Assembly (NCBI RefSeq): GCF_016820655.1
Contig: NZ_WSFT01000019.1
Location: forward strand, 1-64,000
DNA: 64,000 nt
DNA from: Anaeromonas frigoriresistens
GTDB lineage: Bacteria > Bacillota > Clostridia > Tissierellales > SIT17
Reading direction: 5' to 3'
Part shown: piece after piece, positions 1-7,306 of the stretch
Numbering within the stretch: the stretch's first letter is position 1
How the letters are laid out: each line of letters opens with the position of its first letter
The notes under the pieces: generated by a model
Told to the model about the DNA's origin: nothing
What the model saw: the letters and a program-made list of their open reading frames with translations, nothing else
Database searches by the model: none
Program-made: the position numbers and the translations under genes

Positions 1-84
1 TGTTTTACAACTAAAAGTTGTCATTTTAACTTTACACTGTTCAATTTTCAAAGACCAAATTGTGGTGTGCCGTTACCGGCGACT
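1..84 (-). promoter_or_regulatory. 5' leader of an rRNA operon lying off the left edge
   Basis: On the minus strand this stretch follows three tandem promoters. It contains a boxA-like element at 46-58 (TGGTCTTTGAAAA, the TCTTTGAAAA form usual ahead of Firmicute 16S genes) and a small hairpin at 7-21 (ACAACT, loop AAA, AGTTGT). The 16S gene itself is not in the window, so the assignment rests on leader and promoter architecture. The position directly downstream of lysS also matches the lysS-rrn order of Bacillus. Confidence 0.75.
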
Positions 85-4622: not shown

Positions 4623-5399
4623 CTATATAGTATCCTTATTCAATTCATATATTATTCTTAGTCCTTCAAGGGTAAGAAGTTTGTCTATATTGTTAATATT
4701 TTTTGTCTCGGAAGCTATCATTGTTGATAATCCACCTGTAGCTATTACCTTAGCATTTTCTAATCCATATTCATTTTTCATTCTATCTATAATGTAATCA
4801 ACTAATCCTACATAACCATATATGATACCAGATTGCATACTATTTACTGTGTTTCTGCATATAACTTTCTCAGGCTTTCTTAATTCTACTTTAGGTAATT
4901 TTGCTGCCCTTTGAAAAAGAGCTTCACTAGATATTTTTATCCCGGGAGATATAACCCCACCTAAGTAATCTCCACCTTCTGAAATTGCACAGAATGTTGT
5001 AGCAGTACCAAAGTCAACTATTATTATAGGCCCTCCATATTTCTGATATGCTGAAACAGCATTTACTATTCTGTCTGCTCCAACTTCTCTTGGATTATCA
5101 TAGATTATATTCATACCGGTTTTTATACCAGGACCAACTACTAAAGCTTCTTTTTTACAATATTTAATACTCATTGACTGTAGCGAATACATTAATGGGG
5201 GTACAACTGAAGAAATTATAACAGCATCTACTTCGTCTAACTTATAACCGTTATAAGTAAATAACCTATCTATTAGCATACCATATTCATCAGAGGTTTT
5301 ATTTTTATCCGTAGAAACCCTCCAAGACTTCAGAAGCTGCTTTTCTTCATATATACCTAATACAATATTCGTATTTCCTACATCAATTACTAAAATCAT
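4623..5399 (-). CDS. coaX: Type III pantothenate kinase
   Basis: CoaX phosphorylates pantothenate, the first step of coenzyme A synthesis, and is not feedback-inhibited by CoA. At 258 residues it begins [11 protein letters not shown], the phosphate-binding loop of the ASKHA fold. [23 protein letters not shown] and GGVISPGIK follow, all hallmarks of type III kinases. The ATG at 5399 is chosen because AAGGTGA precedes it and known CoaX proteins start here; an in-frame ATG 30 bp upstream lacks a ribosome site and overlaps the ECF gene. It lies 22 bp after an ECF S-component gene, which suggests a pantothenate uptake and activation unit. Confidence 0.95.
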
Positions 5400-5421
5400 T
5401 TCTGTCACCTTCTCTTCTATT

Positions 5422-6183
5422 TTAACCATTCTTCTTTATCCCCATTACTACACCACTTACTATTATCATTGCAACTATAACCTCTGGTATACCATTAGCT
5501 ACTCCAATAGCTAATATAGCCTTTCCAATGAATCTTGTATCTCCACCGATTAATGAAACAAACCTCTCTCCATAAAGCAAATATATCATTAATAATACTC
5601 CTATAGTATTAGTCAATGTTCCTACTGCTGCCGAAACTACTATCTCTACTGAATCTCCCTTGAATTTTTTGAAAGAATAGTATCCTACAAAAATAGTCAT
5701 TAATACAAGAAGAATGTTAAACATCATAGTTTTACTATATAGTTGGTTTCCAGATTGTAACCCATTAATTAGATTATTCCCTAAATATGCTAATGTAGAT
5801 ATCCATATTAGTGATAATGTAATTATTGAAGACTTTTTCCCCATCTTTTTGAATAAAGAATAGGAGTAATAGGCAGTAATACCTATTAATACTCTTGGTA
5901 GTATAGATACTAGAGGATTATAAAATAGTGGTGATAATACTGTAGGAGCAGTTATCGCTCTTATAATACTAAATATCCCAAAAATTAATCCTACTAAAGC
6001 ACCTACTATAGGTCCTTCGATTATAGCTCCAATAATAACAGGTATATGCATTATTGTAGCATTGGCTGGTCCTACTGGTATAAAACCAATAGGTGTTAAT
6101 CCTAAAATTGCAGATATGCCTCCAAGCATACCGATAATCGCCAATCTCCTAGTAGAGATAGACTTTTTACTTTTCTTATTCAT
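5422..6183 (-). CDS. ECF transporter S component, probable pantothenate uptake
   Basis: The 253-residue membrane protein has about six hydrophobic helices. Its N terminus ([17 protein letters not shown], then [16 protein letters not shown]) is typical of substrate-binding S components of energy-coupling-factor vitamin transporters. Such proteins capture the vitamin and use shared EcfA/A'/T modules, which are not encoded here. The substrate is inferred from the coupling to coaX, so pantothenate is most likely and another vitamin is possible. SD GGGAGGT precedes the ATG. The roughly 95-nt leader carries two matched hairpins that could regulate it. Confidence 0.85.
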
Positions 6184-6200
6184 TTTACATACCTCCCGCT

Positions 6201-6271
6201 CTAGTTCCTCAAAGGATACTAGTCGTATTTTTTTGTTTTTTTACCTTGTCCAGTACCCTAAGGGTTACCAG
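6201..6271 (-). ncRNA. Twin bulged-A hairpin leader, candidate regulatory RNA
   Basis: Hairpin 1 (6250-6271) and hairpin 2 (6201-6222) are each exactly 22 nt and share one pattern on the minus strand: CURGU, a bulged A, WCCY, a 3-nt UUR loop, then RGGW and ACURG. Pairs differ between the copies but remain paired (C-G to U-A, A-U to U-A, G-U to A-U), which is internal covariation. A 27-nt A-rich linker separates them. Hairpin 2 ends just before the GGGAGGT ribosome site. From memory this resembles the pan motif found ahead of pantothenate genes; I cannot confirm that without a covariance-model search. Confidence 0.6.
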
Positions 6272-6287
6272 CTTCATAACAATATTT

Positions 6288-6316
6288 ATTTTAGCAGTTT
6301 TATTAAAAACTATCAA
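6288..6316 (-). promoter_or_regulatory. Sigma-A promoter of the ECF-coaX transcript
   Basis: The minus strand reads TTGATA (6311-6316), 17 bp, TAAAAT (6288-6293), just beyond the birA stop. The predicted start near 6281 lies about 10 nt before hairpin 1, so the RNA would begin with the two-hairpin leader. Confidence 0.7.
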
Positions 6317-6322
6317 CAATAA

Positions 6323-7306
6323 TTAAATATATCCTTTAATTCCTCTAATAGAAATTTCCCCAGATATTATTTCTTTAATATTTCCATCATCATACTTAAC
6401 AATTAAATGACCATCATCATTAATATCAATTGCTACTGCTTCTTCTATATTATCTCCCTTTATCACTCTTACTCTTTTATGTAATAATGCTGAGCTTTCC
6501 TTACAGATATCAATTGATTTTTTGATAGATCTAGTATTAATAAAATCTTTATATAGATATTCAAAATTATTTATTACATTTGAAACTAGATTAACTCTAT
6601 CTATAACTTGTTTTTTTTCTATCCTTAAAGAAGTTCCTACCTCCCTAAGATCTTCTGGGAAATCTCCCTCTTCTAAGTTAACATTTATGCCTATACCTAC
6701 TACTATATAATTTACTCTATTTATTTCTCCACTCATCTCAGTCAAGATACCACAGGTCTTTTTACCTTTAATAACTATATCATTGGGCCATTTAATTTTA
6801 TTTTTTATCCCTATTTCTTCTATAGCTTTAGACACTGAGGCAGCACCTATTTGAGTTACTTTGGAGGCTTCAGTTGGTGATATATCTGGTTTAAGAATTA
6901 TAGACATCCATATACCTTTTCCTTTTGGGGACGTCCAATTTCTGCCTAGCCTTCCTTTTCCTTTTAATTGCTCTTCAGAAATTATTGTTGTTCCTTCTTC
7001 TACTTCTAAAGCTATTTTTTTAGCTTCCATATTTGTAGAATCAACAGAAGAATAGTGGATAATATTTCTACCTATATATTCAGTATTTAGTTCTTCATCT
7101 ATTAGATTAGGTTCTAAGATGTCAGGAGATTGTAACAGTCTATAACCTTTTCTAGATACAGACTGAATGATATATCCATCTTCTTTTAATTTTGATATAT
7201 ACTTCCACACTGCAGTCCTAGATACCTTCAATCTATCACTAATTTCTTGACCTGATATGAAGCTTTCTTTATTATCTTTTAATATGTCTATAATCTTCTC
7301 TCTCAC
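6323..7306 (-). CDS. birA: Biotin-protein ligase / biotin repressor BirA
   Basis: BirA attaches biotin to carrier lysines and, in the bifunctional form, represses biotin genes. The 327 residues start with a winged helix-turn-helix (ISGQEISDRLKVSRTAVWKYI, about residues 17-38), so this is the repressor-type enzyme. The ligase core contains GRLGRNW, KGIWMSIIL and KWPNDIV, and a C-terminal SH3-like domain follows. A GTG start has AGGGGGAA upstream. It lies close to the biotin-dependent decarboxylase cluster, whose carrier protein is its expected substrate. A gene for a YtxH-family protein stands between them. Confidence 0.96.
   Translation of the reverse strand: MREKIIDILKDNKESFISGQEISDRLKVSRTAVWKYISKLKEDGYIIQSVSRKGYRLLQSPDILEPNLIDEELNTEYIGRNIIHYSSVDSTNMEAKKIALEVEEGTTIISEEQLKGKGRLGRNWTSPKGKGIWMSIILKPDISPTEASKVTQIGAASVSKAIEEIGIKNKIKWPNDIVIKGKKTCGILTEMSGEINRVNYIVVGIGINVNLEEGDFPEDLREVGTSLRIEKKQVIDRVNLVSNVINNFEYLYKDFINTRSIKKSIDICKESSALLHKRVRVIKGDNIEEAVAIDINDDGHLIVKYDDGNIKEIISGEISIRGIKGYI

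Follow-up and report, generated by a model that had tools for sequence, protein, structure and literature searches.

In PyrR-type leaders, a small hairpin that is bound by a protein shifts the balance between terminator and antiterminator. The pan motif (RF01749) consists of stems in tandem, each bearing two conserved bulged As, and of a GG-rich strand after the second stem; it belongs to the pantothenate/CoA pathway. The motif was described in 2010, with no ligand or protein known according to the accessible text of that report (Weinberg et al., PMC2864571), and the accessible parts of four papers place pan RNAs before panB-type operons or list them without a gene (PMC2864571, PMC4342826, PMC5670726, PMC4634765). 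The regulons named in the accessible part of a regulon-based gut vitamin reconstruction include none for B5 (PMC6593275). The NAD+-I riboswitch has two similar small domains, the second of which lies over the ribosome site, and serves cofactor-supply genes, as stated in the accessible part of its description (PMC10043782).

Here we describe a leader in a stretch of 64,000 nucleotides of Anaeromonas frigoriresistens DNA (contig NZ_WSFT01000019.1, positions 1 to 64,000; hereafter the window). The leader shares with the pan motif the tandem stems, the bulged As, the pathway and the GG-rich strand. It differs from the motif in that it scores under the Rfam cut-off, that it precedes the genes of an ECF transporter S component (ECF S) and of type III pantothenate kinase (coaX) in a host with no PanB or PanC match, that the strand after its second hairpin is the Shine-Dalgarno (SD) sequence with no terminator-like site predicted, and that some of its relatives carry a single hairpin. 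Its likeness to the NAD+-I riboswitch is one of working; the sequences were compared through Rfam only, and in a cmscan of the entire window no Rfam family reached its gathering threshold. PyrR-type attenuator leaders may be regarded as analogous to the terminator-bearing RF01749 loci, whereas no PyrR family match is listed for the window leader. We consider it quite probable that the leader is a divergent, translation-type variant of pan, in which hairpins occupied by a factor would turn ECF S and coaX OFF.

The leader and its operon in the window

The locus lies on the minus strand, in the order birA, promoter-like site, hairpin 1, hairpin 2, SD, ECF S, coaX and dusB. Its features are as follows.

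6323..7306, minus strand: birA, biotin-protein ligase/repressor, directly upstream (PF03099, HTH_11, BPL_C)
6288..6316, minus strand: predicted promoter-like site, TTGATA-17-TAAAAT; a TG precedes the -10 element (10/12 matches)
6189..6274, minus strand: whole pan-type leader RNA element, as matched by our covariance model R1 (R1 62.4 bits; Rfam pan 28.5 bits)
6248..6272, minus strand: hairpin 1 of the leader, with bulged As at 6266 and 6249; covariation in 63 leaders
6197..6225, minus strand: hairpin 2, next to the SD, with bulged As at 6217 and 6200; covariation in 87 leaders
6192..6197, minus strand: SD GGGAGG, the putative switching strand
5422..6183, minus strand: ECF transporter S component, of the pantothenate (PanT/PanU) type by similarity (PF12822, 7.5e-29)
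4623..5429, minus strand: coaX, type III pantothenate kinase (PF03309, 6.6e-82; NF009847, 437 bits with a cut-off of 381)

Both hairpins have a five-pair core, with one bulged A above the core on the 5' side and a second below it on the 3' side; the bulged As of each hairpin are on opposite strands and five pairs apart. Hairpin 1 is composed of the outer pair G6272-C6248, the core CUGGU/ACUGG, the 5' bulged A6266, the apical pairs ACCC/GGGU with the loop UUA, and the 3' bulged A6249. In hairpin 2, the outer pairs C6225-G6197 and G6224-C6198 and the facing A6223 and G6199 are followed by the core CUAGU/ACUAG, the 5' bulged A6217, the apical pairs UCCU/AGGA with the loop UUG, and the 3' bulged A6200. 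The outer stem beneath the 3' bulge has one pair in hairpin 1 and two in hairpin 2. An earlier note on this DNA, made from the sequence, had described twin 22-nt hairpins with a single bulged A each. The twins are real, with cores of 22 nt each as claimed, whereas the single bulge is wrong: each hairpin has two bulged As, of which only the 5' one had been seen. Among the compensatory changes proposed between the twins, one pair holds (A-U to U-A), and two others are merely wobble changes.

The hairpins end at the ribosome site, as had been claimed. Specifically, the outer pair of hairpin 2 already takes in the first SD base, a G, and no other SD base is paired there. The ECF S start codon is the ATG at 6183-6181 (minus strand). 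The predicted promoter would place the transcript start approximately 9-10 nt ahead of hairpin 1, in agreement with the approximately 10 nt given earlier; the promoter-like site is not above chance in its region, where one was found and shuffles would give 1.8. The leader region of the window had no predicted terminator-like site.

The only solved relatives of the ECF S protein at E values up to 1 were 4rfs_S (3e-15) and 6zg3_C (9e-9), both of which are PanT according to the accessible part of an eLife 2020 paper (PMC7755397). Because these relatives are PanT chains and coaX is next, similarity indicates that the operon most likely encodes pantothenate uptake and type III pantothenate kinase, which is the target that the earlier note had proposed. 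Named relatives of the ECF S gene are mostly from Tissierellia and Clostridia. PanB and PanC had no match in the host genome, which is 99% complete.

Conservation and covariation of the hairpins

The window alone is weak evidence and does not exclude hairpins arisen by chance. Its leader had a fold z of -1.89, and 11 of 200 shuffles were equally stable. A loose two-bulge descriptor gave three matches in the leader, one of them spurious, and on 1000 shuffles it gave at least two matches in 238 and three in 34. The hairpins are considered significant because of the covariation and the promoter pattern in relatives, and chance hairpins are ruled out by that covariation.

Homologues of ECF S were found in 126 of the 150 genomes of the window's order. 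We read the leaders of the 90 best of these 126 matches (down to G035), the window's included; G123 and 35 weaker matches were left out. A descriptor requiring As in the bulges found an SD-adjacent hairpin before the pantothenate-type ECF S in all 90 leaders. With a descriptor allowing any base in the bulges, the hairpin was found in 88 of the 90, and both bulges were A in 87 of the 88. The gene next after ECF S was coaX in 89 of the 90 loci. Hairpin 1 was accepted in 63 leaders and not accepted in 27; the finder gave 72, and nine false calls (L003, L004, L039, L043, L071, L074, L077, L080, and L084) were removed on visual inspection ahead of alignment A2. The count of 63 tandem leaders is too low; L006, for example, has a variant hairpin 1. 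Of the 63 leaders, 59 have a TTGNNN-15..19-TANNNT promoter pattern upstream of hairpin 1, compared with 17% of letter shuffles.

Hairpin 2 was aligned in 87 sequences (alignment A1; rows L036, L039, and L041 were left out), and a GGAGG-type SD begins 3-4 nt past the 3' bulged A in all 87. The covariation score of hairpin 2 was 0.336, compared with 0.163 after shuffling, and that of hairpin 1 in 63 sequences was 0.506, compared with 0.254. None of 500 shuffles reached either value, and both scores dropped when the partners were slid. In hairpin 2, 91.7% of the cells were paired and 10 of 11 pairs were changed on both sides somewhere; pair 3/34 does not form in 50 of the 80 distinct sequences. 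Weaker measures were reached more often by shuffles, namely further pair types in hairpin 2 (43/500) and pairs changed on both sides in hairpin 1 (21/500).

The unconstrained minimum-energy fold of the window leader pairs the 3' arm of hairpin 1 with the 5' arm of hairpin 2 (-19.6 kcal/mol, compared with -16.5 kcal/mol for the two-hairpin fold). This arm-swapped choice is common to just 3 of the 63 tandem leaders; minimum-free-energy folds give both hairpins in 47 of them. It was rejected as a conserved structure because the swapped pairing lacks covariation. The cross pairs of one arrangement filled 431 of 441 cells, compared with a mean of 428.6 when species were shuffled, and those of the other filled 339 of 441. 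The pairs within each hairpin filled 438 of 441 cells, compared with 388.9 (hairpin 1) and 426.5 (hairpin 2) in species-shuffled sets.

In L003 and L004, which are from the window's own genus, the 3' half of hairpin 1 is missing and hairpin 2 is intact, and leaders L074-L090 have hairpin 2 only. The earlier note had named homologous leaders lacking a hairpin or covariation as evidence against its proposal; leaders of the first kind do exist, and the covariation is strong. The relatives without hairpin 1 indicate that the invariant element is the ribosome-site hairpin, not the pair, and that the twin is not essential.

Relation to pan RNAs and the genes behind them

RF01749 aligned to the window leader over model positions 1-92 at 28.5 bits. 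As this is under the gathering score of 36.2, we class the leader as a pan variant rather than an ordinary member. An RF01749 search of the host genome gave no match, probably owing to filters or the E-value, and a small-region scan found it. When 20 loci including the window's were scanned, 10 of the 19 orthologous leaders passed the cut-off, with a best score of 49.1 bits. The Rfam check proposed in the earlier note was thus negative for the window itself and positive for about half of its orthologues. Of the features by which a pan RNA is recognised, both bulged As are present in hairpins 1 and 2, and the usual tandem layout is present in the window as in 63 of the 90 leaders; the genes behind the element are ECF S and coaX, not panB, panC or panD.

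The covariance model R1 was built from 53 ECF S leaders including the window's (alignment A3: 38 of the 63 tandem leaders and 15 from L201-L280, with row L262 visibly misaligned); its training set held neither Clostridium-type nor synthesis-type leaders. In the host genome, the single R1 match was the window leader itself, a member of the training set, at 62.4 bits. R1 matched 13 of the 30 best RF01749 loci at E<=0.001 (for example L096 at 7e-6, L091 at 1e-5, and L112 at 1e-5), 12 of which precede synthesis genes; in the remaining 17, R1 was weaker, displaced or without match. All eight untrained Clostridium-type leaders that were tried were recognised (E 1e-3 to 5e-8). Among 398 genomes of the phylum, R1 matched 48, of which 37 had no RF01749 match, and RF01749 matched 164, picking up some uptake-type leaders and missing many. 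All 29 R1 matches fetched from other genomes stand directly before an ECF S gene (L282 among them is in the training set), and in G272, G287, and G504 the R1 place is also a synthesis-type RF01749 place. At the Rfam gathering threshold, no pan RNA was found in 20 other ECF S loci; R1 matched nine of these, the eight Clostridium-type leaders and L223. The ECF S leader L245 (Allofustis) gave no R1 match.

The earlier note had suggested a search with a new covariance model as a check, and R1 matches ECF S leaders in genomes across the phylum. The comparison with the pan motif made in that note is borne out by the full-length RF01749 alignment, by the orthologous leaders over the cut-off and by the R1 matches to RF01749 loci, and on these model scores the resemblance looks like homology.

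The Clostridium-type ECF S leaders (L247-L250, L252, L253, L255, L256, L259, L266, L267, L279, and L280) have a distinct version of the element, GUCGGUAUUC..GAAACCGAAC and then AAUUAUAUCC..GGAAUAAGAACGGAGG. No coaX was found in the fetched DNA of these loci, and the eight tested stay below the Rfam cut-off. Genome G506 (L114, L121, and L290) has four pan-type elements, two found by RF01749 and two by R1. Leader L283 of genome G191 (98% complete) matched R1 at 67.5 bits before ECF S, and no CoaX match was found in that genome.

We classified 90 RF01749 places, chosen among those matched in the phylum, by tblastn and checked 20 of the first genes in Pfam. The first gene after the element was DUF2520/Rossmann-like in 48 (within L095-L180), mostly before panB or panC, and panB in 19, panC in 7 and panD in 1. 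Eight loci were of the uptake type (BioY before ECF S/coaX in 4, birA before ECF S in 2, and ECF S in 2). An SBF/PanS-like transporter stood before panC in three (L130 and L147 by Pfam, L132 by length and order only), an OPT-family transporter was first in two (L125 by Pfam, L128 by length and order only), and an amidohydrolase preceded birA in one. In the last locus (L122), no recognised pantothenate gene was found directly behind a pan RNA over the cut-off. The DUF2520/Rossmann-like protein is a good candidate for the ketopantoate reductase of these bacteria. BioY, of the biotin transporter family, is located between the pan RNA and ECF S/coaX in L123, L135, L178, and L179, and in these operons the uptake of biotin may be connected to the CoA signal. 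The substrate of the pan-led OPT transporter may be a peptide or vitamer that contains pantothenate.

Among 20 synthesis-gene loci examined in the window's order, 11 carry a pan RNA over the cut-off. Synthesis locus and ECF S operon of one genome both have a pan RNA in several cases, for example in the pairs L183/L010, L184/L011, L192/L008, and L195/L007. As pan RNAs are found at synthesis loci and at ECF S and coaX operons, one RNA type marks synthesis, uptake and kinase, which suggests that one RNA signal controls both making and importing the CoA precursor.

The layout behind the element was analysed in 101 RF01749 loci, comprising the 90 classified places and the 11 synthesis-operon loci over the cut-off; the end of the Rfam match was used for every locus. 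A terminator-like stem with a T run was found within 150 nt after the element in 82 of the 101 loci, compared with 9.1% of dinucleotide shuffles. The rule found no terminator in 19, several of which (for example L096, L099, and L118) show a stem that it missed. In the 82 loci, pairing between the 3'-terminal 12 nt of hairpin 2 and the 5' arm of the locus's own terminator had a mean energy of -8.15 kcal/mol, compared with -6.56 (SD 0.21) when arms were swapped between loci and -5.09 (SD 0.24) when letters were shuffled. A stricter, hairpin-based version kept 61 of the 101 loci, with a terminator in 50, and gave -7.01, compared with -5.76 (SD 0.27) for swapped arms. Locus by locus, the longest contiguous pairing was mostly not significant against letter-shuffled segments (p<=0.05 in 20% of 79 loci). 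Our reading of these sequences is that the strand after hairpin 2 would be an antiterminator competing with the outer stem of hairpin 2, which it overlaps by just 2-3 nt or so. In the window leader and the orthologous leaders, the counterpart strand reads CGGGAGG or CGGAGG and constitutes the SD.

Proposed mechanism, alternatives and significance

In the proposed mechanism, an mRNA would start at the predicted promoter just upstream, approximately 10 nt before hairpin 1. When CoA or its precursors are plentiful, a factor would recognise the hairpins with their double bulged As. In the stabilised hairpin 2, the first SD base would be held in the outer stem and the bound structure would lie against the ribosome site, so that translation of ECF S would be OFF and that of coaX OFF by coupling. 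When CoA is short, the hairpin would open, and uptake and phosphorylation would rise. Both layouts could follow the same logic, in which occupation of hairpin 2 takes the strand, be it SD or antiterminator, and turns the gene OFF. The direction of control, the signal, the factor and the activity of the promoter are the parts of this mechanism that we infer. The modelled openness of the SD without any factor had a mean of 0.60 in the 63 leaders and was 0.90 in the window, indicating that hairpin 2 alone hides little; we take this as the unbound state, which would be mostly ON.

The genomes narrow down the signal. PanC had no match in 69 of the 90 leader genomes, which, together with the host lacking PanB and PanC matches, makes pantoate and beta-alanine poor candidates; the signal is probably pantothenate or a later compound, up to CoA. 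The bound factor is most likely a dimeric RNA-binding protein, with a CoA-pathway metabolite as the alternative.

Under this alternative, the tandem hairpins would be a riboswitch with CoA, dephospho-CoA, 4'-phosphopantetheine or pantothenate as its direct ligand, and hairpin 2 would mask the SD. We regard it as possible, if somewhat doubtful. It would account for the conserved bulged As (87/88) and closing pairs, for one element that feeds two expression platforms, and for regulated genes that cover synthesis, uptake and kinase. Moreover, the NAD+-I riboswitch likewise has two similar aptamers, the second overlapping the ribosome-binding site (PMC10043782), and no CoA riboswitch had been validated as of two sources, as far as their accessible parts state (PMC9971707, PMC10043782). 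However, an aptamer of approximately 25 nt with two bulges would be very small, leaders L074-L090 have a single hairpin, and Weinberg et al. (2010) took the tandem layout to favour a dimeric protein, according to the accessible text (PMC2864571). A bolder and rather unlikely proposal is that pan is the missing class of CoA-sensing riboswitch, each double-bulged hairpin being a minimal half-aptamer for a part of CoA or 4'-phosphopantetheine and the tandem copies giving specificity. If this were true, the strand after hairpin 2 would be the antiterminator in synthesis operons and the SD in uptake/kinase operons, and a single metabolite-sensing RNA would set de novo synthesis, import and a feedback-insensitive kinase across the phylum.

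Messenger RNAs can be protected by hairpins at their 5' ends, and minimum-free-energy folds form both hairpins in most tandem leaders (47/63). The hairpins could then be unregulated and set only mRNA stability or a constitutive strength of translation. This is improbable in view of the conservation of unpaired As and loop-proximal pairs, the tie to one pathway across a phylum, and the attenuator-like architecture of the RF01749 loci.

Autoregulation by CoaX, in which the dimeric type III kinase would bind the pan hairpins and repress its own supply chain, appears very improbable. The coaX gene is often behind the element, and CoaX is encoded in 156 of 160 RF01749-positive genomes (160 of the 164 positives), compared with 63 of 77 negatives (of approximately 231). 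The Fisher p value of this co-occurrence, 5e-5, is uncorrected for phylogeny and confounded by ancestry, and the contrast is blurred by the eight of the 77 negatives that are R1-positive. CoaX is common anyway, some ECF S leaders have no coaX found nearby, and none was found in the RF01749-positive genomes G244 and G310 (97% and 99% complete). The strong R1 leader of G191, a genome with no CoaX match, further argues against CoaX as the general binder.

That the repeats are DNA operator sites for a repressor such as the neighbour-encoded BirA is disfavoured and hardly credible: birA is directly upstream in the window and also occurs in the pan operons L105, L124, L148, L151, and L162, but the pairs vary through G-U forms, the element is downstream of the predicted promoter, its strand-specific coupling to SD or antiterminator fits RNA, and it is not obvious what bulges on opposite strands would do in a DNA site.

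The preferred reading, a translation-type pan variant bound by a factor, builds on an RNA kind that is already known. As far as the literature searched shows, three features are new: the association with coaX and a PanT-type importer, a layout that would mask the SD, and the form with a single hairpin; no paper tying pan to an ECF transporter or coaX was found in this search, in which subscription journals were thinly covered and supplements excluded. Also new is our proposal that one strand serves both expression platforms. This would be one structural rule for two platforms, contained in a short, testable leader of 86 nt.

The location of a pan RNA before an importer and a kinase, in a host without PanB or PanC matches, points to pantothenate or a later CoA step as the signal. 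The variant would extend the pan family to leaders missed by the Rfam genome scan (37 of the 48 R1-positive genomes) and would help to find vitamin-B5 importers. Type III kinases are not feedback-inhibited by CoA, according to the accessible part of a review (PMC12570885), and control of importer and kinase at the level of their expression would fill this gap. The finding would also bear on the control of CoA in cells with a CoA-insensitive kinase, and on the noted lack of a CoA riboswitch.
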